The translations under genes and the position numbers were made by a program. Source: a virus. Taken from it: DNA of 64,000 nucleotides. The notes under the pieces are model-generated. The model was not told the DNA's origin, ran no database searches, and saw only the letters and a list, made by a program, of their open reading frames with translations. Location of the stretch: IMG/VR virus record IMGVR_UViG_3300043788_000060, positions 46,257 to 110,256 of that record; one strand, 5' to 3'. Positions 12,450-31,138 of the stretch are shown here, one piece after another; position 1 is the stretch's first letter; each line of letters begins with the position of its first letter.

Positions 12450-12863
12450 ATGGAAGAACTTCTTGATTATGAAAGCTGGGTACGCCAGTTCATAGAGAAC
12501 CTGTTCTCCTATTTTGATATTGTTGGATGGGAACTCCGCATTGAATTTGCTAACGCTCCATCGGAAAAACACGGGGGAAATGCCTACGCAAGTATCGATG
12601 TGGAGCCCACCTATCAAATGGCCACCATTACCTGCTTTCCAATCGTAAAAGAAGATTTTGACGAGAAGAAGATAGATGACATGGTCCAACGCCTGACTCA
12701 CGAAGTCGTGCATGTTTTCCTCTCTCCGTTTCAAGAATTTGTAGAACCCCACCTCTCGACAACCACTTCTCCTTATTTCAATAAAATCCTAGAACAGCAG
12801 ACGCAAAAGCTGACGATGGTTTTCTTGAAAACCCTTCCTAAAAATCTAATCCCACCAAGGTAG
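12450..12863 (+). CDS. Putative zincin metalloprotease-like protein
   Basis: 137 residues. RLTHEVVHVFL at residues 82-92 contains an HExxH zinc-protease motif (H84, E85, H88), with a Glu-rich helix further on (ILEQQTQKLT) that could supply the third ligand. Small phage zincin-like proteins of this shape occur near head/neck genes. A processing role in virion assembly is possible but unproven. Stop and next start are separated by one base. Confidence 0.6.
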   Translation: MEELLDYESWVRQFIENLFSYFDIVGWELRIEFANAPSEKHGGNAYASIDVEPTYQMATITCFPIVKEDFDEKKIDDMVQRLTHEVVHVFLSPFQEFVEPHLSTTTSPYFNKILEQQTQKLTMVFLKTLPKNLIPPR

Positions 12864-12864
12864 C

Positions 12865-13581
12865 ATGGCTTCCTCCACGATCCAACTTCAGCGGACGATC
12901 AACCGCTCCTCGCAATACGCCCGCTTGGAGCCACTGACGTTTGTCTCAAATACCGCTAATGACCCGGCGTTTTCAAACGCCGATTGGGTGATGCAGACTA
13001 TTTTGGCTCCCCCGTTTGCGTGGAGATGGAACAGGACCTCGGAAGGAACTCCGTCGGCCCCTGCGTTTGTCACTGAAATCGGCGTAACGGACTATCAAGT
13101 TAATCTCCCAACTTTTGGTTGGCTCGAAAAGGCTACTTTGTACGATCCAACTTCTGGATACGCGGCTCTGGAATTGCAAGTAGAACTGATCAAGGCTATC
13201 GAAACCAACCCTATCCAACCCCAGCGTATCGCAACACAACTTGACGACGGACAAGGAAACATAACGTTCCGATTATTCGGGTCCCCGGATCAGGTCTATA
13301 ATGTTTGTCTGGAATTTCAAAACGCGGCCCAATTATTCACCGATCCAACAAATACGTGGGCTCCTATTCCGGACTACTTATCATACATCTACAACGAAGG
13401 CATGGATTATAAGACGTTTGAATATTTGTCGGACCCCCGTATGCAGACATCTGGACAGTTGTTCTTTCAATCCCTCGCTGCGGCTTCTGAAGGGCTGACG
13501 GAATCTCAGAAAAATCTTTGGCTAAGTGACAAAATGAATACGCTCCGTCAGACTGCATCCGTTCAATCGGGGAGGGCCTAA
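12865..13581 (+). CDS. Neck/tail-connector protein A (paralogue of 26096-27187)
   Basis: 238 residues. Features shared with the protein at 26096-27187: ILA..PxxWxWNR near residue 48, GWLE, an FRLF segment, and APIPDYLSYIY with a following Gly. The order and length suit a head-tail connector or tail-tube subunit of the podovirus type, which assembles on the portal. Function is inferred from context and the paralogy. It overlaps the next gene by one base (TAATG). Confidence 0.5.
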   Translation: MASSTIQLQRTINRSSQYARLEPLTFVSNTANDPAFSNADWVMQTILAPPFAWRWNRTSEGTPSAPAFVTEIGVTDYQVNLPTFGWLEKATLYDPTSGYAALELQVELIKAIETNPIQPQRIATQLDDGQGNITFRLFGSPDQVYNVCLEFQNAAQLFTDPTNTWAPIPDYLSYIYNEGMDYKTFEYLSDPRMQTSGQLFFQSLAAASEGLTESQKNLWLSDKMNTLRQTASVQSGRA

Positions 13582-13880
13582 TGGGAACAGCAACTACCGG
13601 GTTTCATCGCTTTAGTAACGTCACTGCTCGGGCTCCATACTCAACTACCCAAGAGGTGGTTCCCGGGGCTACTATTTATGTAACTTTGACGACGACCGGA
13701 GCCGGGGCTGTTATTTATTCGGACCCGGGACTGTCTGTAGTTATACCGGGGTCGTTGATTACTGCCGACCCCTCGGGGTGGTACGAATATTATATTCCCC
13801 TGAATTACAACGTGACAGAAACCATTACCTCGGTTTCCGGATTGAATTTTACGATCACGAACATCGTGTCTAACACATAG
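13581..13880 (+). CDS. Small fibre-associated beta protein
   Basis: 99 residues that align along most of their length with residues 24-115 of the next, giant protein: TTGFHRFSNV versus TTGYHRVNQV, VIYSDPGLS versus TIYSDPLLS, YYIPLNYNVTETIT versus YYVPLNYCVTETIT. Unlike its larger relative it has no signal peptide. It may be a separately made copy of the fibre attachment domain. Eight bases separate it from the giant gene. Confidence 0.6.
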   Translation: MGTATTGFHRFSNVTARAPYSTTQEVVPGATIYVTLTTTGAGAVIYSDPGLSVVIPGSLITADPSGWYEYYIPLNYNVTETITSVSGLNFTITNIVSNT

Positions 13881-13887
13881 GATTGGA

Positions 13888-16800
13888 ATGAAGAAATTTC
13901 TTCTCATCGTCGCTTTGTTCCTCGCAATCTGTCCATTATCCGGACTGAATGCTCAAGCCACGACCGGCTATCATCGGGTAAATCAGGTGCTGTCCCGAGC
14001 CTCTACCGGGATCAACGCTCAGGTGGTCCCCAACGCCAGAATCACGGTTACCCAAACGGCTACCGGAACTGCGGCAACTATCTATTCCGACCCCCTGTTG
14101 TCCAACCTTATAACTCCGTCTGTAGTCACTGCCGATAACGCAGGGAACTATTCATATTATGTCCCTCTGAACTATTGTGTAACAGAAACAATCACTGCCC
14201 CCGGTCAGGGGACTCAGATAATCCCTAACATCTGTTCAAACAGCGCCAGCAGCAGTACCTTTCCTTCCCCTCCGTCATTTTCTGTACAATTCGCAAACAG
14301 CGGGTCATCGGCTTTTGATAGTGATTCGACTATTAACGTCACTCCCTCTACTCATACCCTTACTTCTCCAACGGTACAACCGGGTCAGGATGTTACCCAG
14401 AGTTCTCCTGTTATAGACATTCGCAACACTGCCTTTGCGGGCGGTGCGGTGATCGACGGCCACACCGATATTAGCCCCGCAGTGTGCGCCGCCCGTGAAA
14501 GTTGGAGCGCCTCACATCCGGGTCAAAGTCAGACAATTTTATTGGCCTGCGGCGGCGGTGGTTCATCCGCTTCTTGCTGGTGGGCTAACCCTTTGGCGAG
14601 TTGTTCTGGAAGCATAGGCAGTGATTTTAAGTACGTCCTGCAAGGCACTCTCAATGTAGGTACCACGTTGTCCGTTGGTGCGGGTGGGGCTTCTATAGGC
14701 GCGTCAGAGTTCGATGGGGAATCGGGAGAGTTTGGAACTCAATTCCAAGGCACTTTGGCGACAGCAGTAGTCAACGGTCCTCTATGTTTTGGTACGCTCG
14801 GCACCGCAATCACAACGATCAACACCCCGGTCACGGTGACGCCGACATTTTCCGGAACGACTATCGGCGGTGCATGTTCGATTGCAAATCTTCCGGTAAA
14901 TTCCGCGCTGACTATGCGCGGCATGGAAACGTCAGCGGCTACGGGTACGCGGTCTTCAACTTCACTCAGCGGAAGCGGTGGGTACGCGGTACTGACCTTA
15001 TCTTCTGCCGTGCGTATTTCGGCGGGGTCGAACATTCAGGTAACTGGCTGCTCAGACACAGCGTTCAATACCGGTACTCTGGGAACGCTGTCACAAAGCG
15101 TAGTCGCCACTCCGGATTATCCCAATCAGCAACTCGGCTATTACATCTCGACATCTGGTACCGGGTCATCAACAGGATGCACGGTGAAGGGGGCCAGTGA
15201 CGACCGTTTTGAGACAGAGCTAGTGCAGTGCTCAAACGGCACGGCTAATCCCGGATACTCCTGCGGCGCGGGACAGATCACTTTCGTAAACGCCCATACA
15301 TACGCATCGACTGACCAGTGGGGCGAAGTGGCGATGGAAAGCCCGTTCAACGACGGGGCCGGTGGAACTGGGTTGGTAATGAAGCGGATTCTAGTCCAAG
15401 GTTCCGCAGGAGCAGAATTCTTCTCCGATGAGTCCATCCATGAGACGTTCGAGGATGATGGGTTTATTGCCTTTGGGACGCCCACTTCGATTCCTTTCGA
15501 GGCAGATTACCCGCAGAACCTCACAGTCCATTCATCGGCTTTTAATTCGGTCAACAATGGGTATAGCACTTGCCAATCCGGTAACTGTGGGAACGTGAGT
15601 TACCCGTTCGGATTTCGCTGTACCATGATCCCGCCCAGTATCAGTTCTTATCAGGCGGGAACGTGTAACAACTCGAAAATTGATACTTACTCTCAGGTTC
15701 GCGGTGGAATCAAAGTCGATACCAACGGATTCTCTCTGAACTTCGGTATTGAGGCAGCAGCCCCGGAACTTGACCGTGTTTTAATCGAGGAGCCTGTATG
15801 GGGTGGAATTACTTTCGATACCCGAGATGGAGTCACAGGCCCGGTTTACATCAAGGATAGCTACTTACAGGATTTCGTTTCTGGGAGCACCGATCAGGCT
15901 TTTATTGCTGCGGAAAATCCGGGGGGCACTGGATATATTTTTGAGAACAATACCTACTCAGAAAATCCTTTTCTCGTCAATAAATATTGGTATAGTCCAG
16001 CAATCAGTGTGCGCGGAAACATCTCTGATCAGCTTTATACTCCGTGGCCTTATCAAGGGATAGGGGCTGTAGGGCTATTTGAGGACAATGGATTTCTCAA
16101 GGGTGAAGTTGAAGCTCCCGCATTTACTGGTTTCGAGAGTTTGCCCTTCGGTTCGCTCGCTGTAAATCAGTCGCCTGCATCTTGGACTTCGGCTTGCAGC
16201 ACGAACTGTACGGTAACAACGGTTCAAGACCCCACAGGCGGTCAGAACGGCGCTAATATCGCCTCAAACTCAACCACTCATCAAACGATCCTGATTAGCA
16301 TACAATCCGTATCCACCTACCCCGGCGATCAGTTTATCTTTATGGATTGGTTGCGTCCCGGTACCGGACAACTCATACCTAATGACTGGCGAGGTAACTA
16401 TCCATTCCAACTCCAAACTTTGGGCACGGATACCTTTCAGAACAACGGATGCGAAAGCGGCATTGGGTCAAATACAGCCTGCGCTACTAATTACGGACTT
16501 CCTATGTTGAACGACGACTGGGCACCTTACGTGGCTACCGCCACTATCGGGACAGGCGAGTCAGCAGCGCACTTCATGGAGTTTAATCTCGAAAGCGGCC
16601 AATGCACGAATGGTTCGATCCTCAACTGCGGAACACAGCATTTCTGCCCGCAGTGGGCTTTTGTACCGGGGCCTAATAACCCCTCCTACACAGGTGTTTC
16701 TACGTTCGACGTGCAAATCGCCCGCATGTACAACTATCACGGTTGTGCGCCGGGCGGGTTACTTGCCGGACAGGTGGCGACTAATCAAACTGTTGTAGCC

Positions 16801-19800
16801 GCCCAGATTATCGATTCAGGAACCCCATCCAGCACAGCCCCGCTATGTCCAAACGGTCCTAACGGTCAATTCACTACTTCTGGTTGCGTAGCTGGTGCGG
16901 TAACCTCCGTCTCCAACTCCGATGGAACTTTAACTATCTTCCCAACAACGAGTGCGGTAGTAGCCTCTCTAAACACAAGCCACGCGAATTCATGGACCGG
17001 GTTACAGACGTTTGGAACAGATATCTCTATAGGCGGTGTAACAGCTACAGGGGCCACAGGAACTGGTAACGTCGTATTCTCGGCTGCTCCGACCTTTACC
17101 GGAACAATCACGGGGGTAAATCTTACGTTGACCGGTATTGAGTCGGGCAGCGGAAGTTCTTGCTTGCAGATCAGCACTGCCGGAGTCATCAGCAATACAG
17201 GAGCCCCCTGCGGATCGGGAAGCGGCGCGGTTAATTCTATCACCGGAGACGGCGGTATAATCACCAACAGCCTATCTACCGGTGCCGTTACTCTGACTTT
17301 AGGAGCTACAGAAGCAGGCCAGTTTATAGTGGCTTCTGGGTCGGGAACCGCCGTATGGGGAAAGCAAGTCACGCTTGGTCACCAAAATGATAGCGGCGCT
17401 TTAGCTAACGGCTCTCTTACGATTGCCGGTAGCACAACTGCGTCTGGAAATTTAACTCTTAACGGAACAGGGTCTTCTCCCGGACAGATGTCGTTATTCC
17501 TTAATTCTGCCGGAACTATTATGGATTTGGGAAGCACCAACGCCACGGTATCGGCAGCCGGGGCCTATGTTGGAACGAATGTAACTGATTCAGCACTAAA
17601 CGTGGCTGGATTGGTAACTAACTCGTCTGCTGGACTTCTAGGAACAGAAGCTAATTGTACTATCGCACAAGGATGTACGAACGCAACTAGTGCGACGGCG
17701 GGTACAGTTCCTAACGCTACTAGCGGGACTGCGTCTAGCTGGACCCCAACTCCTGCGTTGGGAACAGACAACAGTGTGTCCGGAACTCTACAACTTTCGA
17801 ATAACACCGCAAACGCCCACTCAATTCTCGGAAGCGCGGCTACGACAAGCAACACGGTCAAGTTATTTGCTACCACTCCTACAAATCTGGATTTGATCTA
17901 TTGTGCCAGTTCTGGAGGAGTATGCACGCTAACCGACGCCGGTTATGCCTACAACTCAATTCCATTAGCTGATATTGCTTCACAATCAGCCAATATCATA
18001 GTTGGAACCACAACCAGCGGTAGTCCCGTAGCTCTGTCCGCTCCTTCTTGTTCAGGGGCAACTAACGCTCTAATTTGGACAACTGGAACGGGTTTTGGTT
18101 GCAACACAATCACCACAAGCAGTGTTGCTTTCTCTGGGCTCACCTCCTCGACCAATACCACAGCAGCTATGGTCGTTGGAACCGGAGCAAGTCTGTCTAC
18201 CTCCGGATCGGGAACTATCGTAGCCACAAGCAGTCCATTTTCCGGACTAACTACCTCTACAAATACTACGGCTACCATGACTGTCGGAACTGGGGCAACT
18301 ATTACCTATTCCGGGTCGGCGGTGATAAACTCCACCGCAGTAGAATCGGCTGGAGCTATTACAACTAACGCAACTTATTATTTCCCGATTATATCTTCAA
18401 GTTCGTCCGGAAACTACGAGTTGAATGCTGTAGCTGGTCTAACAATTAACCCGTCAACCGGGTCTATGGATGTTCCTTCGGGCATCGCAACTGGCGGACT
18501 ATCCAACACAATCTCCGGGGGAACAGCAGGATTCTATGGTCCAATAGAAGGAACCGCTCCCACTGCTATAACGGGCTCTGGCAATTTTGATATCATCTAT
18601 GCGGATTCGACTCTGCACGCCGACATGGAGTGCCCGGAGTCTAATTCAACCGCCGTGACTACATGCCTGCCCGTTGCCTTGATGCCAGCTACGAGCACGG
18701 CTGGGGATGTGGTGTATAGCACTAACTCAAACGGGTATAACCTATCGGATGCTGGATACCCATACAACGCAATCCCCAACGCCGATCTTGCTCATTCTGC
18801 AATAACCATCGCAGGCACCTCAGTATCTTTGGGTGGATCAACTACTTCGCTCCCGAGTCCCGGCGTAATCGGCGGAACAACCCCGGCGGCGGCTACCTTC
18901 ACGGCTCTGACCGCCAACACGAGTCTCGTAATCAACGGCGGAACGGCTCAAACTGGAACACAAGGCACTGATACAAAGCTACTGACAGCCGGAACTATAA
19001 GCGGTACCAGTATACTTCTTTGCACGGATGCAAACGGCGGAGCAACCACCACAAGCTGCCCGAGCGGTGGTTCTGGGGTTGTGTCAGCCGCTGCACAATA
19101 CGATATCGCATACTACACTCAGTCGGGGACTACAGCACAAGTCGGCGGAGCGGCAATTAGTGGTTTCCAATTCGATTCAACTTCCGGAGCACCAGCCGCG
19201 GCTACCGCAGCGCAACTTGGAACTCTGGCTGCTATTGCAACTGGAGATTTGGTCTACAGCGGAGGAACGTCATCGGCGCTCCAAGGAAGCGCAGACTTCA
19301 CGATTTCATCGCATACTCTGACTGGAGGATCAAACGCTATCTTCGATATGAGTGCTGGCGTGAACGTGAAACTGCCGGTCACCGCTTCTTACACTAGCGC
19401 AGCCAATGGCGAACAGGGTTACGACTCAACAAATAAGAATTGGCATATATGGGGAAACGCTGTTGATAATTTCAATGTGATCGTACCGGTATCAACATCG
19501 ATCACGAACGGCCACTGTTCTCAATGGTCTCTATCAGGCGGTGTGCTGACGCTCATCGATGCTGGTTCAACGTGTGGCTCGGACTCCGGTGGAGGAATAT
19601 CGGGGTGGTCTGGAACACCGTTAACCTTTATTTCAAGCACTACACAATATGCTCCCCCAGTGGGCGGAGGCTTGACCGCCACTTCCGAATCGACGGCAGA
19701 CGTAGCTGCGCCTGCTGCCGAAACTATCTCCAGCCTTGCTGTAAGTCTTAGTGCGGCCTTGGGCGCTGGTGCAACACTCCAAGTCACCTTCCGAGATAAC

Positions 19801-20775
19801 GGCGCGTCAACGGCGCTTACTTGCACTACAGCATCGGGTGGAACGTCCTGTACCGACACGACGCACAGCGTGAACATCGCTAAGGGCGATTTGATCGATC
19901 TATTGTTGGTCTCTTCCGGCACGGTAACCGCTGGTGTTCCTCAAATTATCGCAAACTATGCAGTCGGCACGAGTGGTGTCGGTGTGACTAGTATTGCCAC
20001 TACAGGCCCCATCACTGGCGGGACAATCACTTCGACGGGTACCATCGCCTGCGCGACGTGCGTTACCAGCGCCGCGTCACTGACGGCCAACGGCATCGTA
20101 ATTGGCGCAGGGAGTCAAGGGGCACAAACCTTGGCTTTAGTGGCGAACGCGGTCCTCAGCACAAACAGTATCGGCGTGCCATCGGAAAGCACAACGTTGC
20201 CTATCGCGCTGACGATTCCCGACGCTGCATCGATTCAGGCGCAGACGGTTCTTCCGCTCACGCAAGTTGGCATCTACAATACAGCGGCTCTGCCGGTAAC
20301 GACTACCAATCCGGCATTGACTTCTTACACTGTCTCAAAGAATCGTCGCGCCTGCGTGATCGATAACGATACGCAGTCAGCGACCGCACTGACAGCGGCG
20401 CAGTTCTCAGGGAAATGCGTCATTCCGTTTGCGGCGACCATCGTCGAAGTAGACGTTTCGGGCGGAACGCAGACCTTGAACGGAACCGCGACGGCTCCGA
20501 CTTACACAGGTACAAGTTCGATCCAGATCGGCAAATCTGGAGCGCAAAACGTAACCGGAATTCTTTCGGGAGTTCTTGCTACGGCTTCGGGCAGGGCCTG
20601 TGCGGTTGCGGGAACTTCGGGAACCTGCATTTTCGATAACGGTATGACCAGCAGCACGACAGTACAACTGTCTGATACCTCGGTCGCAGCCGGAGATCAA
20701 CTTTACATTTCTGCCGCAACGGCGGACGCAACACAGACGTGGTACGACGTAACCATTGTCTACACGGTAAATTAA
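13888..20775 (+). CDS. Giant secreted-type tail fibre/spike (2295 aa)
   Basis: Starts with a Sec signal peptide (FLLIVALFLAICPLSG, cleavage likely at LNAQ-A). Residues 24-115 repeat the domain of the preceding protein. About 400-700 look like a right-handed beta-helix (RILVQGSAGAEFF, GITFDTRDGVTGPVYIKDSYLQDF), followed by a possible carbohydrate-binding sandwich. About 990-1900 are long Ser/Thr/Gly fibre repeats, including FSGLTSSTNTTAAMVVGTGA and FSGLTTSTNTTATMTVGTGA, and paired DAGYxYNxIPxAD units. The C-terminus is a distinct domain with several Cys. It is likely a host-binding fibre. A signal peptide on such a protein is odd. A 15-mer variant falls in the signal peptide region (13931-13945). 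Confidence 0.7.
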   Translation: MKKFLLIVALFLAICPLSGLNAQATTGYHRVNQVLSRASTGINAQVVPNARITVTQTATGTAATIYSDPLLSNLITPSVVTADNAGNYSYYVPLNYCVTETITAPGQGTQIIPNICSNSASSSTFPSPPSFSVQFANSGSSAFDSDSTINVTPSTHTLTSPTVQPGQDVTQSSPVIDIRNTAFAGGAVIDGHTDISPAVCAARESWSASHPGQSQTILLACGGGGSSASCWWANPLASCSGSIGSDFKYVLQGTLNVGTTLSVGAGGASIGASEFDGESGEFGTQFQGTLATAVVNGPLCFGTLGTAITTINTPVTVTPTFSGTTIGGACSIANLPVNSALTMRGMETSAATGTRSSTSLSGSGGYAVLTLSSAVRISAGSNIQVTGCSDTAFNTGTLGTLSQSVVATPDYPNQQLGYYISTSGTGSSTGCTVKGASDDRFETELVQCSNGTANPGYSCGAGQITFVNAHTYASTDQWGEVAMESPFNDGAGGTGLVMKRILVQGSAGAEFFSDESIHETFEDDGFIAFGTPTSIPFEADYPQNLTVHSSAFNSVNNGYSTCQSGNCGNVSYPFGFRCTMIPPSISSYQAGTCNNSKIDTYSQVRGGIKVDTNGFSLNFGIEAAAPELDRVLIEEPVWGGITFDTRDGVTGPVYIKDSYLQDFVSGSTDQAFIAAENPGGTGYIFENNTYSENPFLVNKYWYSPAISVRGNISDQLYTPWPYQGIGAVGLFEDNGFLKGEVEAPAFTGFESLPFGSLAVNQSPASWTSACSTNCTVTTVQDPTGGQNGANIASNSTTHQTILISIQSVSTYPGDQFIFMDWLRPGTGQLIPNDWRGNYPFQLQTLGTDTFQNNGCESGIGSNTACATNYGLPMLNDDWAPYVATATIGTGESAAHFMEFNLESGQCTNGSILNCGTQHFCPQWAFVPGPNNPSYTGVSTFDVQIARMYNYHGCAPGGLLAGQVATNQTVVAAQIIDSGTPSSTAPLCPNGPNGQFTTSGCVAGAVTSVSNSDGTLTIFPTTSAVVASLNTSHANSWTGLQTFGTDISIGGVTATGATGTGNVVFSAAPTFTGTITGVNLTLTGIESGSGSSCLQISTAGVISNTGAPCGSGSGAVNSITGDGGIITNSLSTGAVTLTLGATEAGQFIVASGSGTAVWGKQVTLGHQNDSGALANGSLTIAGSTTASGNLTLNGTGSSPGQMSLFLNSAGTIMDLGSTNATVSAAGAYVGTNVTDSALNVAGLVTNSSAGLLGTEANCTIAQGCTNATSATAGTVPNATSGTASSWTPTPALGTDNSVSGTLQLSNNTANAHSILGSAATTSNTVKLFATTPTNLDLIYCASSGGVCTLTDAGYAYNSIPLADIASQSANIIVGTTTSGSPVALSAPSCSGATNALIWTTGTGFGCNTITTSSVAFSGLTSSTNTTAAMVVGTGASLSTSGSGTIVATSSPFSGLTTSTNTTATMTVGTGATITYSGSAVINSTAVESAGAITTNATYYFPIISSSSSGNYELNAVAGLTINPSTGSMDVPSGIATGGLSNTISGGTAGFYGPIEGTAPTAITGSGNFDIIYADSTLHADMECPESNSTAVTTCLPVALMPATSTAGDVVYSTNSNGYNLSDAGYPYNAIPNADLAHSAITIAGTSVSLGGSTTSLPSPGVIGGTTPAAATFTALTANTSLVINGGTAQTGTQGTDTKLLTAGTISGTSILLCTDANGGATTTSCPSGGSGVVSAAAQYDIAYYTQSGTTAQVGGAAISGFQFDSTSGAPAAATAAQLGTLAAIATGDLVYSGGTSSALQGSADFTISSHTLTGGSNAIFDMSAGVNVKLPVTASYTSAANGEQGYDSTNKNWHIWGNAVDNFNVIVPVSTSITNGHCSQWSLSGGVLTLIDAGSTCGSDSGGGISGWSGTPLTFISSTTQYAPPVGGGLTATSESTADVAAPAAETISSLAVSLSAALGAGATLQVTFRDNGASTALTCTTASGGTSCTDTTHSVNIAKGDLIDLLLVSSGTVTAGVPQIIANYAVGTSGVGVTSIATTGPITGGTITSTGTIACATCVTSAASLTANGIVIGAGSQGAQTLALVANAVLSTNSIGVPSESTTLPIALTIPDAASIQAQTVLPLTQVGIYNTAALPVTTTNPALTSYTVSKNRRACVIDNDTQSATALTAAQFSGKCVIPFAATIVEVDVSGGTQTLNGTATAPTYTGTSSIQIGKSGAQNVTGILSGVLATASGRACAVAGTSGTCIFDNGMTSSTTVQLSDTSVAAGDQLYISAATADATQTWYDVTIVYTVN
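13931..13945 (-). repeat. 15-mer motif, GTCCGGATAATGGAC variant, antisense in coding
   Basis: In the signal peptide codons of the 2295 aa fibre, read as CPLSG. Confidence 0.75.
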
Positions 20776-20788
20776 CCAAGGAGAATCT

Positions 20789-21580
20789 ATGAAGAAGTTT
20801 ATTTTTGTGATCGCGATGCTGGTAATTGCCGCCGTGATTGGGGGTGCCCAGAACCAAGCTCCTGTTACAGGTCCAATTGCTCCTAACGGGTTTGCCATAC
20901 CAAACGTCAATTTGATAGACGATTTTCTCGGCAATACTCCAGCGACTTCGACGACAATCGGGCAATTGGGGTGGGATTCTACCGTTGTTTCTGGTGGAAC
21001 CAACCCAGTTGCTGCTACGGCTTCTGTAGCCAATCATCCGGGGCTGATTACCCTCACTACTGCTGCAACAACTGGTGACGGTGTATATGTGTCGTTGGGT
21101 CACGCGGTGGGAGTTCTATTTCCCGGTAACACAACCAACTGGCAAGCGGAATGGATTCAGGAGTACAACCAGATATCCACAGGTTCAACTAGAATCGGTT
21201 TTGGTACTGTCGATTCGTCTTCTGCTATTCCGACAAACGGCATCTATATCCGATATCTTCAAGGCACGGACTCTTTCTTGAATGTCTGCTCGGATACTTC
21301 TTCAACAGAGACCTGCGGGGCGACGACCATTCTTCCAACCGCAGCGGACTACGTTGACATCATTATGAGTTCGTCTGCTACCGGGACGATCAGCGTCACG
21401 GTAAACGACATCACGACTCCGGCGACTTCTACGATAAGGGTATGCTCAAGCGGCTGCAACGTTACAGCGACTCCTCCAACAGGAGTCCTATCACCTATGT
21501 TCTCAATCGTTTCAACCAGCAACACGGCGGATGTCCTGACTGTGGATTATTGGAACTATCAACAAATCGCCGCCAGATAA
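20789..21580 (+). CDS. Secreted-type fibre protein with lectin-like sandwich
   Basis: 263 residues. Signal peptide MKKFIFVIAMLVIAAVIGGAQ with cleavage near GAQ-N. The rest follows a concanavalin-like pattern common in phage fibres: LIDDFLG, LGWDS, NHPGLITLTT, WQAEWIQEYNQI, TRIGFGTVDSSS and NGIYIRY. It is preceded by AAGGAG and lies in a run of five similarly built genes. Probable carbohydrate contact at the tail tip is inference. Confidence 0.6.
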   Translation: MKKFIFVIAMLVIAAVIGGAQNQAPVTGPIAPNGFAIPNVNLIDDFLGNTPATSTTIGQLGWDSTVVSGGTNPVAATASVANHPGLITLTTAATTGDGVYVSLGHAVGVLFPGNTTNWQAEWIQEYNQISTGSTRIGFGTVDSSSAIPTNGIYIRYLQGTDSFLNVCSDTSSTETCGATTILPTAADYVDIIMSSSATGTISVTVNDITTPATSTIRVCSSGCNVTATPPTGVLSPMFSIVSTSNTADVLTVDYWNYQQIAAR

Positions 21581-21584
21581 TATA

Positions 21585-23117
21585 ATGAAACGACTTATCC
21601 TATTTTTGTTCTTTCTGTTCTCGGTACCTACGTGGGCGGTTACCCCAGTTGTTCTTCAGTATTTCGGCGGTCCGAATGAGTCAAACGAGTTTGCGCTTAC
21701 GACCAGTTTGACAAAGAATGTTCCGTTGGCTAGAGCCGCGACTGCTGGGGATACGCTCGTCTGGTGCATGTACTACAACACCGGAAGCGGCTGGGCTGTC
21801 AAGACAGATGCAGGCGCTGAGACTTTTACCGAAGGCGTTCATGGAACCGATTCGGGTGTCGGAACATTGGACTGCTACTACTTCATCAACTTGGCAGGCG
21901 GTGAAACTAGTATCCAGATCACGCACACGTCAGGGAGTCCTACCTATGTGGGCGGAGTGGGATACGAAGTGAACAACATCACCGCTCATCACGTCGCCGG
22001 AACCTGTACGTCGGGGTCAGGGGCACTAGGACAGGCAGCTTCTACGACAGTTACTTCCGGCACTACAGGGACAGTCGCATCGGGAGATTGGCTTTCTGTC
22101 TACACCTTTCAATTCTCGACGCCGCAATTGACGGTTGCCTACGCTCCTGTGACCCACGCGAACATCACTTGGCAGATGATTCATTCGGAACTGATGGTCG
22201 CGCAAGCCATGATGGTAGGTCAATATAGCACTACCACAGCCTTCCAGCCTTCAATGACTCAAGCCAACGTGCAGACCTCGAATATGTGTACGGATGCTTT
22301 CACGACGGGCACCAGTGGAGCGGCGGGATTCCCGACAGGCGAAGTTGTGGCTGGAGTGCAGGCCGAGACGTTCTTGAACGGTGGCACGAATCCGATGGAT
22401 ATAGAAATAACGCCTATCGGAAACACGCTCGTGGTAATGGGACCAACGGGGTTTGGTGGATATTTCACGTCGGTCACGAGCAGTCCAAGTGCAACGTGGA
22501 AGTGGAATGACGGGTCGGGCAGCGACCCGGCTAGGTGTTTCGATTCAGGCGATGTTACCGAGACGCCTTACTTCTACGCTACGGGTCTGACTCCGGGCAC
22601 GACCTACACCATCACGGTAACTTCTAATACGGCGGCAGTCGATACAGCCTTCGCTGAGTTCGATATTGCTAAAGGGTCAACCCCGAACATCGGTAGCGCC
22701 GGTTCATGTAATACCGGTGTTTTTTCTGCGACCAGTGGAAATCTGAATATCAGCCTTACCACAGGAGGCGGTGCGGCGACCAATGCGGCCTTTGTACCAA
22801 CGAGCGCCAATGGGATCGTTATTTCCAGCGACAGCGTATCGTTCGATACAAACTCTGGCACTACAACCTCCGGCGCATTTGTCAATATGGGCTACAACAG
22901 CGGAGCGACCCAGATTGGAAACAGCCCGTGGTACGAGAATGACGGAGATTTAAGCTATCCGCATAGTTCAACGTCGAGTGTGGCCTTCATCTACACAATC
23001 ACCAGTTCTCCCCCCAACACATCAAGTGATGTAAGTGATTGGTCCGCTTCTACCATCGATGTTCCCGCAGCGTCATCACCGAGCACTTCCATACACCATA
23101 AGGTTACATCGGAATGA
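21585..23117 (+). CDS. Secreted-type Ser/Thr-rich fibre protein
   Basis: 510 residues. Signal peptide (LILFLFFLFSVPTWA) followed by two beta-rich parts of Gly/Ser/Thr-rich sequence with scattered Cys. One part around residues 255-360 looks fibronectin-like (YATGLTPGTTYTITVTSNTAAV). It overlaps the next start by 4 bases. It is probably part of the fibre or spike complex. No enzyme motif is seen. Confidence 0.55.
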   Translation: MKRLILFLFFLFSVPTWAVTPVVLQYFGGPNESNEFALTTSLTKNVPLARAATAGDTLVWCMYYNTGSGWAVKTDAGAETFTEGVHGTDSGVGTLDCYYFINLAGGETSIQITHTSGSPTYVGGVGYEVNNITAHHVAGTCTSGSGALGQAASTTVTSGTTGTVASGDWLSVYTFQFSTPQLTVAYAPVTHANITWQMIHSELMVAQAMMVGQYSTTTAFQPSMTQANVQTSNMCTDAFTTGTSGAAGFPTGEVVAGVQAETFLNGGTNPMDIEITPIGNTLVVMGPTGFGGYFTSVTSSPSATWKWNDGSGSDPARCFDSGDVTETPYFYATGLTPGTTYTITVTSNTAAVDTAFAEFDIAKGSTPNIGSAGSCNTGVFSATSGNLNISLTTGGGAATNAAFVPTSANGIVISSDSVSFDTNSGTTTSGAFVNMGYNSGATQIGNSPWYENDGDLSYPHSSTSSVAFIYTITSSPPNTSSDVSDWSASTIDVPAASSPSTSIHHKVTSE

Positions 23118-25537
23118 AGAAACTCTTTCTTCTTGCATTTGCTATCGTGCTGACGGCACCGTTATGCGCCCAATCGTGGTCGAACGTACTATCTTCTTCG
23201 CGGGCCATAAACTGGACCAACGCCGGATTACCTGCCACGTTGCCTGATGGGGAAACGACTCCCAATCCGTGGACCCCTCCGACTCGTCCCGCATGTACCA
23301 CGGGGCAGGCCGGAACAACCGTTCCCATTCCCTCGGGTGCTTCGGTTACGACGATCAACTCGGCCATTGCTTCCTGTGCAGCAGCCAACCCAAACGGATC
23401 ATACCTGCTGCTTGGTGGGTCTACAGCCAGTCCTGCGACGTTCACTGTCGCGTCCACGCAGTTAAGACTCGTTGATACCTCGGGCGGCATTTCGCACAAC
23501 GCTGTCACCCTGCGAGGTGGCGGAGCAATGGCAACGAAGATTGTAGTGACAGGTACAGGTGTAGTTGTCTTTGGAAATGCTTGGAGTTCTGGATCGGCTC
23601 CGTGGACCGCCGGGTTTAGTCAAGGCACAACATCAATCACCGTTGGAACTCCTACATCAGGAACTATTCCTGTGGCAGGCAATTTGGTTCTATTACAGAT
23701 GTGCAACACCGGGTTTTCTGGAGCGGGCTGCTCTACCGGATCAGTTGCAGATAACGGCAATGTGTTTCTGTGTGGTGGATCAACTTTCTGCGCAAATCAG
23801 GCAGGCAACGATACTCTTCAGGGTCAGATGGTAAGAGTCACCAGCGTAACCGGCTCAGGCCCATACACAGTTAATTTCACACCCGGTCTTTACATGCAAA
23901 ATTGGACTTCTACCGGAGGGGGTTCGACGATGAGTTGGACCGGGGCTGGGTCGATTAACTCTCCTTATGGTATAGGTCTGGAAGATTTGACGGTTGATGA
24001 GACGGGAATATGGAACACAGAAAACTTTGGCATTCAATTTGATTATGTCTACGCATCGTGGATGAAAGGCGTCCGCGTAGTGGGGTCAGGAGAAGCGGAT
24101 TCGGTCGAGTTCGAGGATTGCAAAAATAGTCTGATATTCAACTCTATGTTTGATGACTATTCCTACAATCGTGGAGATTTATCTCTTTCTATTCAGGAAA
24201 CCAACGATTCCGATAATCTAATCCTAAATACTCAGATGCTCCACGGACTGTCTTGGGAAGGTCATGGACCCAACGAGGGGGATATTCTGGCGTACAACTT
24301 CATTGGCCAGACTCATACCCTTTATTATGAAGCAAATCCGTTTCAGCACACCCCGGGCACGGCGTTTACTCTTTATGAAGGAAATGAAACCGGCCATATC
24401 ACAGACGATGACACTTGGGGAACCGCAAACCTGAATACGTTTTTCCGGAACTATATGTCGGGATGGGACCCGCCGTATCTTCTCTCAAGCCAGTGCGCTT
24501 CTTTATCATGTGTGGCAATGAAAGTGGATGGGGGGCACCGATTCGCTAATGTCATTGGTAATGCTATTGGAAGCCCGTTCCTGACGAACTATCAGGCTAC
24601 ATTGTCAACCCCAACTAACGGGATCACCAATAACGCTGTCTATCGATGGTCAGCAGACATGAACGACCCCCTCGTTTTGCTCACAGTCATGAGATGGGGA
24701 AATGTTTCTTCAGTAACGCAATCGTCAGACACTCCTGCTAATTCAGGTATCCGGTTTGTATCGTCAGAAGTTCCCTCTTCGATCAACGTCAATGGGCAGT
24801 GTTCTGCTAGCGCCAGTCCATATTCCTGTTGCACAGGATCGGGAACAGGAACATGCTCTGCTTCGACGTGGGCGAATTCAGTACCTTCCAATGACAATCT
24901 GCCGTGTTCGTTTTTCCTTGCCGGATATACTGGAACCAGTTGTACTCCTACCCACACAGGTGGTACTGGGCTAAGCTGGTGGAAAGTATGCAAAACATGG
25001 GCGACTTTTCCCACTTCCTGCTCCGCCACCCAAACCCAAGCCTTTCCGATTGCCGGTCCAGACATCACGAGCGGTCCATACGTTGGGGGAACGGCTTATG
25101 ATGTTCCGGCCTACGTTGCGTTTACCACTCTGCCGGTTGATACGACCTACGAGAATTCCTACTCGATCACCGGCTCCAGCTGGTCGGGGACTTGCGCAAA
25201 CCAACCATCGGGAACCTATGCTTGTGAAACCCTGACTGTCACCGGATTACCTTCCGGCAGCGCCCACATTATGGGCGATATCCAGATATCAGGGACTTCC
25301 GGATGCAACACGTCTACGAACGGTGTATTTACCATGACAGCGTCAAGTCTTAGCGGCACTACAGGAACCATAGTGTATCCTTTGGCTTCTAACCCCGGTT
25401 CATGTTCTGGCGGAACCATGCTATTTCCGGTGGTACGTCAGTTCGATGAAGCAGTCTATCAAAACGATCCTGCGGGAAACCCAATCGGATCAGTCCTATC
25501 CCCCTCAAACATATTTGGAAAATCAGTAATTCAATAA
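23114..25537 (+). CDS. Secreted-type tailspike with beta-helix
   Basis: 807 residues. Signal peptide MKKLFLLAFAIVLTAPLCAQ. The middle shows parallel beta-helix rungs (GLEDLTVDETGIWN, VRVVGSGEADSVEFEDCKNSLIFNSMFDD, NLILNTQMLHG, DILAYNFIGQT) as in pectate-lyase-like spikes that cut or bind surface polysaccharide. The last 150 residues form a separate beta domain with Cys pairs. Depolymerase activity is plausible, but no catalytic residues can be assigned by eye. Confidence 0.6.
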   Translation: MKKLFLLAFAIVLTAPLCAQSWSNVLSSSRAINWTNAGLPATLPDGETTPNPWTPPTRPACTTGQAGTTVPIPSGASVTTINSAIASCAAANPNGSYLLLGGSTASPATFTVASTQLRLVDTSGGISHNAVTLRGGGAMATKIVVTGTGVVVFGNAWSSGSAPWTAGFSQGTTSITVGTPTSGTIPVAGNLVLLQMCNTGFSGAGCSTGSVADNGNVFLCGGSTFCANQAGNDTLQGQMVRVTSVTGSGPYTVNFTPGLYMQNWTSTGGGSTMSWTGAGSINSPYGIGLEDLTVDETGIWNTENFGIQFDYVYASWMKGVRVVGSGEADSVEFEDCKNSLIFNSMFDDYSYNRGDLSLSIQETNDSDNLILNTQMLHGLSWEGHGPNEGDILAYNFIGQTHTLYYEANPFQHTPGTAFTLYEGNETGHITDDDTWGTANLNTFFRNYMSGWDPPYLLSSQCASLSCVAMKVDGGHRFANVIGNAIGSPFLTNYQATLSTPTNGITNNAVYRWSADMNDPLVLLTVMRWGNVSSVTQSSDTPANSGIRFVSSEVPSSINVNGQCSASASPYSCCTGSGTGTCSASTWANSVPSNDNLPCSFFLAGYTGTSCTPTHTGGTGLSWWKVCKTWATFPTSCSATQTQAFPIAGPDITSGPYVGGTAYDVPAYVAFTTLPVDTTYENSYSITGSSWSGTCANQPSGTYACETLTVTGLPSGSAHIMGDIQISGTSGCNTSTNGVFTMTASSLSGTTGTIVYPLASNPGSCSGGTMLFPVVRQFDEAVYQNDPAGNPIGSVLSPSNIFGKSVIQ

Positions 25538-25545
25538 GGAAAACA

Positions 25546-26061
25546 ATGAAAAAGTTTGTTCTTTCGCTTATCTTTTCGGCATCGGCGTTATTAGCTGGAG
25601 TCGGTTGCGCACACGCAGGTCAGCTTCCTCCAACGCCCGGATACAACACCGTGTGGACATGGACGGCCCCTAGCCCGTGTAGCGGGTGTACCTATGTTGT
25701 GTCCACGCTCGTTCTGTCCAGTGGGACGACTTGCCCCGCGTCAACAGGATCGAATTACATCCCTCAACAAACTGTGACCACAGGAGTAACTGGGACGACT
25801 TGGACCCAGACAAACACAACTGGGTTGACGTTGTGTGCTGTTGCCCAGACAATTCAGGGGGGAAATACTTCCACTGCTTCAGCACAAAGCGCAGCGGTAA
25901 TTAACCCGACCCTGCCATCAGCCCCCGGAGTACCAAGCGGAAATTCGGCGGTATCTGCGTTGGCTCCCCCTGTCTCCCCAAACTCCCTGCCAGTGCCTAG
26001 CTCCCAGATGGCAATGAATATTCCTATGCAGATTGTAGGACATTCGGTTCCGAGACAATAA
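25546..26061 (+). CDS. Secreted-type fibre-associated protein
   Basis: 171 residues. Signal peptide (FVLSLIFSASALLAGVG) with a Cys just before the cleavage region (GCAHAG), then one fibronectin-like beta domain (YNTVWTWTAPSPCSGC, GTTWTQTNTTGLTLCAVA) and a Pro/Ser-rich tail. Last of five consecutive genes encoding signal peptides. Function unknown. Confidence 0.55.
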   Translation: MKKFVLSLIFSASALLAGVGCAHAGQLPPTPGYNTVWTWTAPSPCSGCTYVVSTLVLSSGTTCPASTGSNYIPQQTVTTGVTGTTWTQTNTTGLTLCAVAQTIQGGNTSTASAQSAAVINPTLPSAPGVPSGNSAVSALAPPVSPNSLPVPSSQMAMNIPMQIVGHSVPRQ

Positions 26062-26095: not shown

Positions 26096-27187
26096 ATGCC
26101 TGTATTACCCGGGAACCAAGCTAATTCGCCGACAGTTCAGCAGATAGCTCAACAACTAAAAGCGGACCCCTCTTTCTATAACATATTAGGAGGGGCTGCT
26201 GGTTGGGCTACCGAACCAATCCTGACTATCGCCAACGAAGTTCTGTCGCGAATTCTCGCCGAGAACATGCCTTGGATTTGGAATCGGGCAATCGTTCCTC
26301 CGTTCTTAACTGTCAGCCTTCAGCAGGATTATTGCACTCAGCTTACGGATATTGGGTGGTTGGAAGATGGCTGGCGTATAGACATCAACAACTCGACATC
26401 GAATAACAACGGGGCCCCGAAACCTATCTTTAGCCTCGAAACGGTCAGGTACACCCCGCAGGCGTCCGCCCAATCCGTACCATTCAACATTAGCTTCGTC
26501 CCTAACTCACAGGCGTTTCTAGGATCGTGGCAGGCTAATACTGCTTATGGTTGTGGGTATGGAGTTCCTATGACTCCTCGAACCCCCATCCAGCAGTTCA
26601 TGGATGTAAATGGCAACATCCTATACATCGACTCGACCCAACTAGGATTGACCATTTCTTCTCCGGGGTACACTGGAACTACCATCCTTCCCCCCGGAAC
26701 AGTGTTTCCTTACGGCACATCTGGGGCTACTCAACCCGCCGCTCCTCCTAACGCTACTCCCGGAACTTTAGTTCAGGATGGTTCGGTCATTTGGGCAGTC
26801 GCTGATCCAAATGGTTATGCGATACGGCTATTTCCTCTTCCGGCGTTGAACGGTCTCTGTTGGTGGATCGTAACTCAGTATCAGGTAGCTCCCCCGGTTA
26901 TCGCAAGATTGCAAGATTCGATTGCTCCTATTCCTAACTACATGGCGTACCTCTTCCGTCAAGGGTGCCGGGCGATGCTCTATCAGTTTCAAGGAAACCA
27001 GCAAGGTACTCAAATGTATCAGGAGTGGGAAGAGCAACTTTTTAAGGCTTTGAGAGCGGGGGACCGCCAGCAATCAGACGAGCGTCTATACCCTGATCAT
27101 TCAATTATGGGAAGCTACAACCCGTGGATGGACCCTGCTGGCATTGGCGCAGCTTGGCCTTATGGCCCCGGCCCGTATGCCTATTGA
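26096..27187 (+). CDS. Neck/tail-connector protein B (paralogue of 12865-13581)
   Basis: 363 residues. It shares with the 12865-13581 protein the order ILA..PWIWNR, GWLE, IRLF and APIPNYMAYLF with a following Gly, but has an insert of about 120 residues in the middle containing Pro- and Thr-rich beta sequence. Probable tail-tube or connector subunit. Start is preceded by GGAG directly next to a 15-mer in the unusual antisense orientation (26072-26086). Confidence 0.55.
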   Translation: MPVLPGNQANSPTVQQIAQQLKADPSFYNILGGAAGWATEPILTIANEVLSRILAENMPWIWNRAIVPPFLTVSLQQDYCTQLTDIGWLEDGWRIDINNSTSNNNGAPKPIFSLETVRYTPQASAQSVPFNISFVPNSQAFLGSWQANTAYGCGYGVPMTPRTPIQQFMDVNGNILYIDSTQLGLTISSPGYTGTTILPPGTVFPYGTSGATQPAAPPNATPGTLVQDGSVIWAVADPNGYAIRLFPLPALNGLCWWIVTQYQVAPPVIARLQDSIAPIPNYMAYLFRQGCRAMLYQFQGNQQGTQMYQEWEEQLFKALRAGDRQQSDERLYPDHSIMGSYNPWMDPAGIGAAWPYGPGPYAY

Positions 27188-27909
27188 TATTGGTCTGTGA
27201 TTGATGGTCTCATTTTGATTCCGGCCTTTTTGAGCCTGTGCCGCACCCCAGCTTCCGTTAAAGGAAATAGTTTGGAAATTTGTGGGCAACTTTTTCCTTC
27301 CAAATAAAGCTTAATCAGGTCTTCCGTTTTTACTTCTTGGTTGAAGGAAGTACTCTTATCTCCAGAAAATCTTTCCCTAAGTTTCTGTCGAGTTTCTTCG
27401 GATAAAGAAGGACGATTCTTTTGGGCTTCCCCGATCTTTTTCCTTGTTATTTCTGATACGGGCGGTCGAGGATTGATGAGCAAAGATTTTTTAATGGCTT
27501 CGCTCATCTTCTTTCGAGATTCTAAGCTGTGTTTGAATCCTTTTGGAAGACCGCCGCTTTCCCTCACTTCTTCCGATGGTTTTCCATTAGCTCCCCCTCT
27601 TTTTAGGTTATAACCTTTGGATTTATTCATCGAATCATAAGCCGCTATGTAGAGGTCTTCCATCAAGTCTAATTCCTCTTTTGATTGGCAAGAACAAAGA
27701 AGTTCGATTTTGAATGATTCTTTTCCATACCGACGAATTGCCCGGAAAAGAGGCGTATCCTGCCCCTTGTATTTTCCCGACAGATATGCCACGGCGTGGG
27801 ATACGTGATTGCGAAACCGCAGTTTTAGGGACGACACTGTCTGGCCAACATAAATCTTTTTGTTGACTAAGCATGTAATCAAGTAAATTCTACCGTAAAC
27901 CAAAATCAT
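27181..27909 (-). CDS. GIY-YIG homing endonuclease (inserted, antisense)
   Basis: 242 residues from ATG at 27909, 6 bases after its own TATAAT, so the mRNA is probably leaderless. The domain shows VYGRIYLITCLVNKKIYVGQT, an Arg in LRFRNHV and the Glu helix LDLMEDLYI. Then follow three basic repeat units of the NUMOD3 kind (HSLESRKKMSEA, VSEITRKKIGEA, LSEETRQKLRER) and a C-terminal helix-turn-helix (CPQISKLFPLTEAGVRHRLKKAG). It lies in reverse between two rightward structural genes, overlapping the upstream one by 7 bases, which marks it as an insertion. Confidence 0.9.
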   Translation of the reverse strand: MILVYGRIYLITCLVNKKIYVGQTVSSLKLRFRNHVSHAVAYLSGKYKGQDTPLFRAIRRYGKESFKIELLCSCQSKEELDLMEDLYIAAYDSMNKSKGYNLKRGGANGKPSEEVRESGGLPKGFKHSLESRKKMSEAIKKSLLINPRPPVSEITRKKIGEAQKNRPSLSEETRQKLRERFSGDKSTSFNQEVKTEDLIKLYLEGKSCPQISKLFPLTEAGVRHRLKKAGIKMRPSITDQYQ

Positions 27910-27915
27910 AGTTTT

Positions 27916-27973: not shown

Positions 27974-30900
27974 ATGCCCAATAACCTTCAAAAAGTCGGA
28001 GCACAGCCCAGCAGGCCCGCACGGTTTGGCGTTCTCTGGCACAACAATTTCTATCTCGGCATGGTTACTCAGCGGAATCCGCTGCACAGCTACCTGCAAC
28101 ACATCGAAGAGGAGTTTTACGGAAACCAACCGGCGCTGATTGGCGGGTCTAATACCGAGGTCTCTACCAAGCTGACGTTAATCCGCAGACCGGGACACTC
28201 TGTCTACAACTCAAGTACCTTTCCGACAATAAACCGGTTCTACGAAAACCGGTTGTCGATTTTCAATGCCACCCAAACGACGACCACCGAGTCAATTCAG
28301 ATCGTCGCAGATTGCGCACCTGTCACACAAGGACCGTTTACCTTCAATATTTCCAGTGTACAGGTTCTGAAAATTCAAACGAATTTCAGCATCATCCATC
28401 CTACATATACCTACTACGCTCTGGTAACTTTCTCGACGACTCTACCAAGCGTTGTCTATGGACAAACTTTTACCTTTTCCGGTCTTACTGGATATACCGC
28501 CTTAAACGGACATGCGTTAATCGGCGTATCGTCCGTAATTAGATATCATTTGTCTGCTGGACCCAATCAGGCGCTTTTCTCGTTTGGGTCTGCTGCTTAT
28601 CCAAATACCCCGGATACCGGAATAGCGACGGTTCCTGCTGTAACCGGAGTAGGAACCGTAAGAGATGTTACCGGCCCTTCGACTAACAAAGTTCTGTTTT
28701 CTAAAACAGCGGGGGCCGGAACCGCGAGTTTTCAATCGGTCGGAAACACTCTATATTTTTCGGACGGCCCCGATCAGGAAAAACTGATTACCCCTAATCT
28801 AATCTGGTCGGCTAATCAGACTTTCAATACCGGAAACCAAGTTTTAGACACCAACGGAAATCTTCAGATCGTCCAAGGAACCGGAACAGCCACGATAACG
28901 GAAATCGCAGTTATCAGTTCTACTCTAGGAGTAGTCGGCGGTCCTACCCAATATTTCTTACAGATAACTTTCTCTTCCGAAGTGTTCTGGACTCAAGGAA
29001 CACTCGTTACTTTCTCCGGGGTTACAACTTATACGTCTATAAACGGTCAGACCCAGACCGTTGTGGTGAATCCTACCTATCTTCCTCCGGGAGTTAACAC
29101 AGCTTATTTCACGACAGCAGCAATCACTACCTACGGTCCGGCGGTGGATACAGGCACAGCCACTTCTACGAATTCTACCGGCAGTGGAACCAGCGGAGGC
29201 ACAACTCCTTCTTGGAGTCCAACAATAGGCGGATTTACTACCGACGGAGATTTGACGTGGCAAAACTTCGGAATCCCTCTTTATAACTGGGCAGTACCCC
29301 CTCCGACTCTCCCCCCCACTTTAAGCATACCGTCTGGAAACAGATACTGGCAGCCAAATTTTTCGGTTCCTCAGTGGTACTCCGTTTTAGACCAGAACAA
29401 TCATATTCAGTTTGTATCCTCCCCGGGAATCACAGGAACCCAACAACCTGTTTGGAGTAGCTTATACGATACCGGGTCTTCGTCCAACGGAGTTGTAGCG
29501 GGGTCTACTACAGACGGGACTGTAACTTGGCTAAACGCCGGTCCATTAGGCACGTGGCAGGCCGACACGACGTATTATGTTTTCCAGTGTATCTTGGATT
29601 CAAACGGGAATATTCAAATCGCAGAAAGCGGAGGAACCAGCGGAGGCTCCGCGCCTGTCTGGAACACAACTATTGGAGTAACTACCACAGACAACACTAT
29701 TACTTGGGTTTGTGCAGGTCCCGGTCACGTTATCATAACCGGAAATGTATATTACGGGTATAGTTGGGTCTCTACGGACGGAAGTGTAACCACCTCCTCG
29801 CCAGTAGTTTCTCTAAATATCAACAGTGCGGTTTTAGGCCCCGCAGGAAACCCGATAGCGACAGTGTCCGGAAGTTTCCCGGCTGATCAACAGGTAACGC
29901 AGGCATGGGTATGGAGATCGGTTCAAGGTGGGTCAGCAGCAGAGTTATTCTTCGACTCTGCCCAGTACAACCCCACTCCCGGTGCCGGGTCTAACTGGTC
30001 GTTCAACGATGTAATCCCAGATGTTTATCTGAACGAACTAATTCAGGCACCTCTGGATGACCAAAACGATCCTCCTCCTGTAGGACTAACGGCTCTTGCC
30101 TATCACCTCAACCGCGTGTGGGGCTCCGTCGGAAATATTGTTTTCAGTTCTCAGACCTCCGGTATCGTCGGAAACCCCTACACAGCTTGGGACCCGGGAG
30201 TGTTCTTCACTTTCCCGGACACCGTGGTACGATTGTGGCCTACCTCAAACGGTCTGCTCGTATTTACGGTCGCCGATATTTTTGTCATTCAAGGATTGGG
30301 AGATGCTTCTAGTTCCTTCTTTTCGACACCGTTCTTACAAGGAACGGGGCTTGCGAATTACGATGCTTTTACAGTAAAAGGCGCGATTCCGTATTTTTAT
30401 ACCACAGACAATCAGGTACTTACAATCGACCCAAGCACTGGACTATCAGAAGTAGGGGCCCCGGTCGGAGATCAATTTGGTCCGAATAATGGAACAAACA
30501 CCTTTCTTCCTTCTACGGCTCGGTTGACTTGGAATTTCTCCGGGTCGCAGGAAAAGGCGTTGTACGTTTCGGATTTCTCTCAGAACTGGTGGAGGATGTT
30601 ACCCACCCCGTCTCCAGAAACCGGAACAACGTGGTGCCCAATGGCAACTATTGTCGGCGGGTTCTCCGCTGTTCAGTCGGTAGAAACTTCCCCGGGAATT
30701 CATAACTTGTTGCTGGGTCCACAGACGACCGGTCCGATTCTTATGAGAGACCCGTCTGTCTATTCCGACAACGGTTCGTCGTACAGCGCCTATACCATAA
30801 TCGGCAGCATAGTTCTGGCCCAGCCGGGACAATTGGCGTACATCAAATTGTTAACAACAGACTGTCAGGCAGTAGGAACTCCGATAACCCTTGAAGTTCA

Positions 30901-31138
30901 ATTGGATGAGATAGCTCCGTTGTCTTCCGGGTATTTCGAACCCTTAACTTTGTATGTTCCTGATCCGACCCAGTTAACCGCCCCTAACAGCTTATATGCA
31001 CAACGATTCTATATGTCGCAGACGCAACAACCGGCGGTATGCAGGCACTTCCAAGTTCTAGTTTCTTTTGGAACCGATGTTGTTAAGAACGAATTACTTA
31101 GCCTGTCTATTTTCGGTGCCTACGATCAAGAGGACTAA
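27974..31138 (+). CDS. Large tail nozzle/tubular protein B-like
   Basis: 1054 residues. The N-terminal part (GVLWHNNFYLGMVTQRNPL, then KLTLIRRPGHSVYN, INRFYENRL) and a repeated beta architecture through the middle, with NPYTAWDPGVFFTFPDTVVRLWPTSNGLLVFTVADIFV further on, resemble podoviral tail nozzle proteins built on a beta-propeller. Several 90-residue beta repeats (PSWSPTIGGFTTDGDLTW, APVWNTTIGVTTTDNTITW) are inserted. Start follows AGAGGACC. Its TAA overlaps the next ATG. A near copy of the 15-mer (30480-30494) encodes GPNNG. Confidence 0.55.
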   Translation: MPNNLQKVGAQPSRPARFGVLWHNNFYLGMVTQRNPLHSYLQHIEEEFYGNQPALIGGSNTEVSTKLTLIRRPGHSVYNSSTFPTINRFYENRLSIFNATQTTTTESIQIVADCAPVTQGPFTFNISSVQVLKIQTNFSIIHPTYTYYALVTFSTTLPSVVYGQTFTFSGLTGYTALNGHALIGVSSVIRYHLSAGPNQALFSFGSAAYPNTPDTGIATVPAVTGVGTVRDVTGPSTNKVLFSKTAGAGTASFQSVGNTLYFSDGPDQEKLITPNLIWSANQTFNTGNQVLDTNGNLQIVQGTGTATITEIAVISSTLGVVGGPTQYFLQITFSSEVFWTQGTLVTFSGVTTYTSINGQTQTVVVNPTYLPPGVNTAYFTTAAITTYGPAVDTGTATSTNSTGSGTSGGTTPSWSPTIGGFTTDGDLTWQNFGIPLYNWAVPPPTLPPTLSIPSGNRYWQPNFSVPQWYSVLDQNNHIQFVSSPGITGTQQPVWSSLYDTGSSSNGVVAGSTTDGTVTWLNAGPLGTWQADTTYYVFQCILDSNGNIQIAESGGTSGGSAPVWNTTIGVTTTDNTITWVCAGPGHVIITGNVYYGYSWVSTDGSVTTSSPVVSLNINSAVLGPAGNPIATVSGSFPADQQVTQAWVWRSVQGGSAAELFFDSAQYNPTPGAGSNWSFNDVIPDVYLNELIQAPLDDQNDPPPVGLTALAYHLNRVWGSVGNIVFSSQTSGIVGNPYTAWDPGVFFTFPDTVVRLWPTSNGLLVFTVADIFVIQGLGDASSSFFSTPFLQGTGLANYDAFTVKGAIPYFYTTDNQVLTIDPSTGLSEVGAPVGDQFGPNNGTNTFLPSTARLTWNFSGSQEKALYVSDFSQNWWRMLPTPSPETGTTWCPMATIVGGFSAVQSVETSPGIHNLLLGPQTTGPILMRDPSVYSDNGSSYSAYTIIGSIVLAQPGQLAYIKLLTTDCQAVGTPITLEVQLDEIAPLSSGYFEPLTLYVPDPTQLTAPNSLYAQRFYMSQTQQPAVCRHFQVLVSFGTDVVKNELLSLSIFGAYDQED
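30480..30494 (+). repeat. 15-mer motif, one mismatch, coding
   Basis: GTCCGAATAATGGAA in the nozzle-like gene, read as GPNNG. Confidence 0.7.

Follow-up and report, generated by a model that had tools for sequence, protein, structure and literature searches.

The window analyzed here is a stretch of 64,000 nucleotides (bases 46257-110256 of a 110,256-base IMG/VR virus record), with the terminase, portal, and major head protein genes located directly upstream (L014). An original prediction made from the letters had described five consecutive fibre or spike genes with Sec signal peptides in this window, and the five ORFs were confirmed at 13888-26061, all with ATG starts, contiguous, and arranged as one operon in which neighbouring genes are separated by short gaps or overlap by 4 nt. 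Proteins are designated below by the first position of their gene, and SP+ and SP-less denote proteins with and without a predicted Sec signal peptide (SP). The first gene (13888..20775, plus strand, as are all genes of the block) encodes a 2295-aa putatively exported spike or fibre with an SP at residues 1-22 (LNA|Q), an anchor domain from Q23, and 48 mature Cys residues that form 24 close pairs. It is followed by genes for a predicted exported fibre-cassette protein of 263 aa (20789..21580; SP 1-20, 4 mature Cys), a predicted exported protein of 510 aa (21585..23117; SP 1-18, 6 mature Cys), a predicted exported spike-like protein of 807 aa (23114..25537; SP 1-19, 21 mature Cys), and a predicted exported protein of 171 aa (25546..26061), whose SP contains a conserved G-C (a possible lipobox) and which has 4 further Cys.

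The block is bordered on both sides by genes for SP-less tail adaptor-like proteins, termed AD (12865..13581 on the left and 26096..27187 on the right, both plus strand), and the left AD belongs to one profile family with 26096 and with gp12 and gp13 of the cultured phage Tunturi_3. Between the left AD and the block, a short gene (13581..13880, plus strand) encodes a 99-aa SP-less protein that has an anchor domain as in 13888, with homology to the start of the latter, and no Cys. Farther downstream lies the gene for NOZ, a 1054-aa SP-less protein that is nozzle-like by position (27974..31138, plus strand) and served as the basis of the phylogeny. The AD protein 12865 had no PHROG match, and neither the AD family profile nor NOZ matched the PDB in profile searches; thus, AD and NOZ are positional names only.

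Several other genes of the window were recorded. The structural module contains a histidine phosphatase (9381-10007; His_Phos_1, E 6e-33), which relatives including L009 and L118 retain, and a small protein whose LTHEVVH motif resembles that of zinc proteases (12450-12863); the latter protein matched neither Pfam nor NCBIfam. A GIY-YIG/NUMOD3 homing endonuclease gene lies between the 26096 and 27974 genes (27181-27927, minus strand), with similar genes nearby in relatives, and the product of 4996-5940 combines a LAGLIDADG-like motif, AGLIDGDGSF, with a zinc ribbon at its C-terminus. The 2322-aa product of 34870-41838, with matches to phrog_3170, phrog_3842, and DUF7178, is probably an ejection or internal virion protein.

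None of the five block proteins matched a Pfam, PHROG, or NCBIfam family, and 13888 and 23114 had no protein-level match in any cultured phage. A scan of viral_contigs with 23114 gave no match; its homologues in contigs L003, L160, and L022 are all SP+. No relative of 21585 was found, and a small SP+ gene occupies the position of 25546 in several related phages.

Signal peptides were assessed by a rule-based Sec/SPI caller that requires a charged n-region, an uncharged h-region of at least 8 residues, and small residues at -3/-1. All five block proteins were called, each starting with MKK or MKR followed by a hydrophobic core and then by small residues at the cleavage site, compared to a background of 146 calls among 20,000 interior protein fragments (0.73%), and the central claim of the original prediction was thus borne out. 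Away from the fibre block, 2.7% of the genes in these phages were called, from which the chance of five signals in a row is ~1e-8. In a control on phages T7 and lambda, the caller picked out lambda Lom and the spanin gp18.5 of T7 and nothing else; the fibre proteins gp17, J, and Stf were not called, in contrast to the fibres of the window.

The cleavage site of 13888 could be anchored by homology, independently of the caller, at the start of the conserved domain: in nine relatives of 13888, this domain begins at the Q right after the signal, the -1 position is occupied by A, G, or S in every one of them, and the SP-less paralogue 13581 begins at the same point as mature 13888. The A-x-A or AQ-type sites ascribed to all five proteins hold overall, with a reservation for 25546, in which four homologues conserve a G-C closing the hydrophobic core; set against the lipobox consensus [LVI][ASTVI][GAS]C, their -3 residue is G, T, F, or S. 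Instead of being an A-x-A substrate, this product may be a lipoprotein. The last 25 residues of the five proteins contain no hydrophobic segment and, hence, no C-terminal membrane anchor. The original prediction had also considered a role in membrane-associated tail assembly. The N-termini would then stay uncleaved, serving as an inner-membrane tether or inserting into the target membrane from the virion, and all five are hydrophobic enough for anchoring. Against such a role stand the small -1 residues, the Q at +1 directly ahead of the conserved domain, and the coincident start of 13581, as well as the Cys pairing described below, which places the protein bodies on the oxidising side; we therefore consider uncleaved signals very unlikely.

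A passage in a published article (PMC7678975), citing earlier E. coli work, states that exported bacterial proteins favour an even number of Cys residues. Even counts were found in 49 of the 56 mature SP+ block proteins (p=3.7e-9) versus 12 of the 24 SP-less block proteins having Cys, the parity p-values being somewhat inflated by kinship since 24 of the 56 belong to one homology cluster (with Cys counts from 6 to 48). Cys density was 1.79 per 100 aa in SP+ proteins compared to 0.77 in SP-less ones (p=1.6e-8). All 11 counts were even in L002-L004, contigs that were found only via 20789 and lie outside the 56-protein set; the count of 23114 is odd.

The Cys residues of 13888 are separated by a median gap of 11 inside pairs, as against 76 from one pair to the next (p at most 5e-5). 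Neighbour pairing over 42 SP+ proteins gave a combined p=5e-41, whereas complete SP-less proteins showed no significant neighbour pairing. Three 5'-truncated ORFs, with pairing significant in two and nearly so in one, probably lost their signal at the contig edge. In a paralogue test, Cys was present at both NYC and NIC in 10 of 10 near-family SP+ anchor domains, and no SP-less neighbour had Cys at both. The SP+ anchor domains of a second subfamily have their Cys pairs at other positions. The 4 mature Cys of 20789 are invariant in four homologues, and the window protein has jointly lost a further Cys pair that three relatives possess, both of its residues being replaced. Several independent sequence tests thus strongly support export and disulfide formation for the SP+ proteins.

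The anchor domain of 13888 was modeled by AlphaFold2 from 16 sequences (pLDDT 76). Its best structural matches were the tail complex of Pan3 (Z 9.6) and the tail machine of Pam1 (Z 8.9); the similarity to the P22 tailspike head-binding domain (Z 7.1-7.7) falls in a range common to unrelated beta domains. Matches of the model in BFVD were the N-termini of phage pectate-lyase-type spikes, and the top match of the anchor sequence profile, independent of the model and weak, was the N-terminus of the Pan3 tail spike (E 0.009). Together, these structure and profile matches suggest that a predicted exported protein carries the type of domain that fixes spikes to podoviral tails. The head-binding domains of P22 gp9 and Sf6 gp14 and the Pan3 and Pam1 tail-complex proteins have a similar predicted N-terminal beta anchor fold, and these spikes are, like the window genes, neighbours of podoviral tail genes. 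P22-type spikes are synthesized in the cytoplasm; unlike them, the window protein has a Sec signal ahead of its anchor and Cys residues in pairs. As to the parallel beta-helix body of P22-like spikes, the five window proteins gave no Pfam match and Tunturi_1 gp17 gave a weak one to Beta_helix.

Among the five proteins, the anchor domain was seen only in 13888, and no fold was shown for the other four; the AlphaFold2 model of 20789, built from four sequences, was poor (pLDDT 39). The assignment of all five as fibres or spikes therefore stands on a domain for 13888 and on position and relatives for the others. With its export and oxidation signatures and its virion anchor domain, 13888 resembles, by sequence and model, a spike destined for export and subsequent docking more than a depolymerase or decoy that acts solely in solution; 20789, 21585, 23114, and 25546 could have a secreted depolymerase or decoy role.

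Two alignment-based scans yielded about 100 related contigs. Among their non-redundant block genes of at least 250 aa, 34 of 60 were SP+, a count that predates two corrections (L090|5 removed and L089|5 changed from SP-less to SP+), compared with 0 of 239 for the flanking AD/NOZ proteins and 12 of 374 for large genes elsewhere. The original prediction was right in taking the export signals as real and unexpected. As for the individual calls, L090|5 had been taken for an SP+ fibre and is a homing endonuclease, L017|12 was a false SP+ call and was removed, and L089|5 is SP+ once an upstream ATG is used.

In the clade of the window, the two AD genes enclose the SP+ genes, which in the Tunturi_3-like clade are found after AD and before NOZ. 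In the NOZ tree, the window's clade was SP+ in 10 of 10 rows with a readable fibre block, and over the full set of 34 rows four changes of the trait are required, of which well-supported branches force at least three, with the labels of contigs with a cut-off fibre block assigned by hand. The fibres of Tunturi_3 and of the phages closest to it are SP-less, and the SP+ phages L061, L082, and L144 additionally have SP-less fibre-like genes. Phages of the Tunturi-like clade, whether SP+ or SP-, have a small SP-less anchor-type protein of ~95 aa, equivalent to 13581, encoded ahead of their fibres. Relatives were found in two Acidobacteria MAGs and in one MAG labelled Bacteroidetes. The former, together with Tunturi_3 being the only cultured relative of 26096, make an acidobacterial host of the window phage likely, and the host of the soil phage group is probably Acidobacteria.

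Contig L003 (3571-15693) has no AD/NOZ match and contains five SP+ genes in a similar order (2142, 269, 509, 991, and 124 aa), with 40, 6, 10, 32, and 4 mature Cys, respectively. The presence of this five-gene set on another backbone suggests that the exported-fibre cassette is mobile. Such mobility would also fit signals that are disused remnants of secreted host genes, which the phages would have acquired by recombination. However, the signals are kept in diverged relatives (10 of 10 in the clade) while the protein bodies diverge, and Cys parity and pairing are kept as well, which makes disused vestiges highly improbable. Acquisition from host secreted genes, raised in the original prediction, found no support as a recent event for 13888, since its anchor is paralogous to an adjacent SP-less phage gene and has a phage tailspike fold.

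The only cultured relative of 26096 is in the Tunturiibacter podovirus Tunturi_3 (PP885686; 30% AD protein identity), which shares with the window two AD genes, a ~95-aa anchor protein, fibres, and NOZ. In contrast to the window, its fibres are all SP-less (with 1 Cys in gp15 and 7 Cys in gp18) and are located after both AD genes rather than between them. The cultured Tunturiibacter phages Tunturi_1/2 and Tunturi_4 (PP887698, PP885685, PP885687), two types of Acidobacteriota phage, resemble the window in having SP+ spike genes with even mature Cys counts. In Tunturi_1, gp12, gp13, gp14, and gp17 are SP+ with 20, 10, 20, and 32 mature Cys, and the small SP+ gp16 has one; in the siphovirus Tunturi_4, gp113 and gp114 are SP+ with 8 and 20. 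The annotated start of Tunturi_1 gp14 (L172 15931-18690) is probably too early, and a TTG located 11 codons downstream gives a clean signal and the 20 mature Cys. Unlike the window, Tunturi_1 is matched by neither the AD nor the NOZ profile, indicating that the SP+ trait occurs on more than one backbone. Tunturi_1 and Tunturi_3 grow on the same strain, the former with SP+ spike genes and the latter with none. In the paper on the Tunturi isolates (PMC11924767), signal peptides go unmentioned and no proteomics is presented.

A further option of the original prediction was that the proteins act outside the cell as soluble depolymerases or decoys. As exported, oxidised non-virion proteins, they could degrade polysaccharides, mask receptors, or serve as decoys, aiding the spread of progeny or the avoidance of debris. 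The export and oxidation signatures fit this option equally well; Tunturi_1 gp17 matches chitobiase C-terminal and Fn3-associated domains and, weakly, a beta helix, and the last gene of the block, 25546, possibly encodes a lipoprotein. The anchor of 13888, however, is of the virion tailspike type and is common to an SP-less phage protein, and the genes occupy the locus that in Tunturi_3 holds ordinary SP-less fibres. Moreover, few or no long SP-less fibre candidates are left in Tunturi_1 or the window, and few other receptor-binding candidates remain. The part of this option that concerns export thus agrees with the data, while a wholly soluble function fits poorly with the virion anchor domain of 13888. 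We regard it as the main rival reading and as rather unlikely for the set as a whole, some members of which could still be soluble.

We instead consider it likely that the five genes encode a receptor-binding spike and fibre set that is exported by Sec, oxidised in the periplasm, and docked at lysis. The phage would be a podovirus-like soil phage in which each product, directed by its Sec signal, crosses the inner membrane and has the signal removed. The proteins would then fold in the oxidising periplasm, where disulfides would join neighbouring Cys residues, while the head and tail core, including AD, NOZ, and 13581, would be built in the cytoplasm. The spikes would be stored in the periplasm and meet the virions when the envelope breaks at lysis, docking via the N-terminal anchor domain, possibly onto a tail site made with 13581 as the proposed socket. 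The signals, cleavage sites, Cys pattern, anchor fold, and locus conservation were read from sequence, and we infer export in vivo, disulfide formation, periplasmic storage, and docking after lysis; exported trimers would presumably reach the cytoplasmic virions by this route. On balance, and a little more cautiously, we favour the view that this two-compartment assembly, with a cytoplasmic head and tail core and periplasmic disulfide-bonded spikes that dock at lysis, has been adopted several times among phages of Acidobacteriota.

Tailed-phage virions are taken as finished in the cytoplasm, and we know of no export route for tailed-phage spikes. The adsorption protein pIII of filamentous phages is a virion protein with a Sec signal peptide and disulfides, which remains membrane-anchored while the filamentous virion is extruded; by contrast, the window belongs to a tailed phage, and the C-termini of its five proteins have no hydrophobic anchor. 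The literature searched, with many subscription papers outside its scope, held no precedent for exported or signal-peptide-bearing tail proteins. Spikes and Sec signals are each known, and, judged by that literature, their recurrent combination with paired Cys throughout a clade of tailed phages appears to be new.

The signal, paired Cys, and anchor domain together provide a sequence test for finding such phages, and the cultured Tunturi_1, 2, and 4 make the exported-spike model testable. If the model is true, these phages would gain disulfide-stabilised receptor-binding proteins suited to particles that persist in soil, virion assembly would gain a step dependent on the Sec and oxidation machinery of the host, and lysis itself would be an assembly event.
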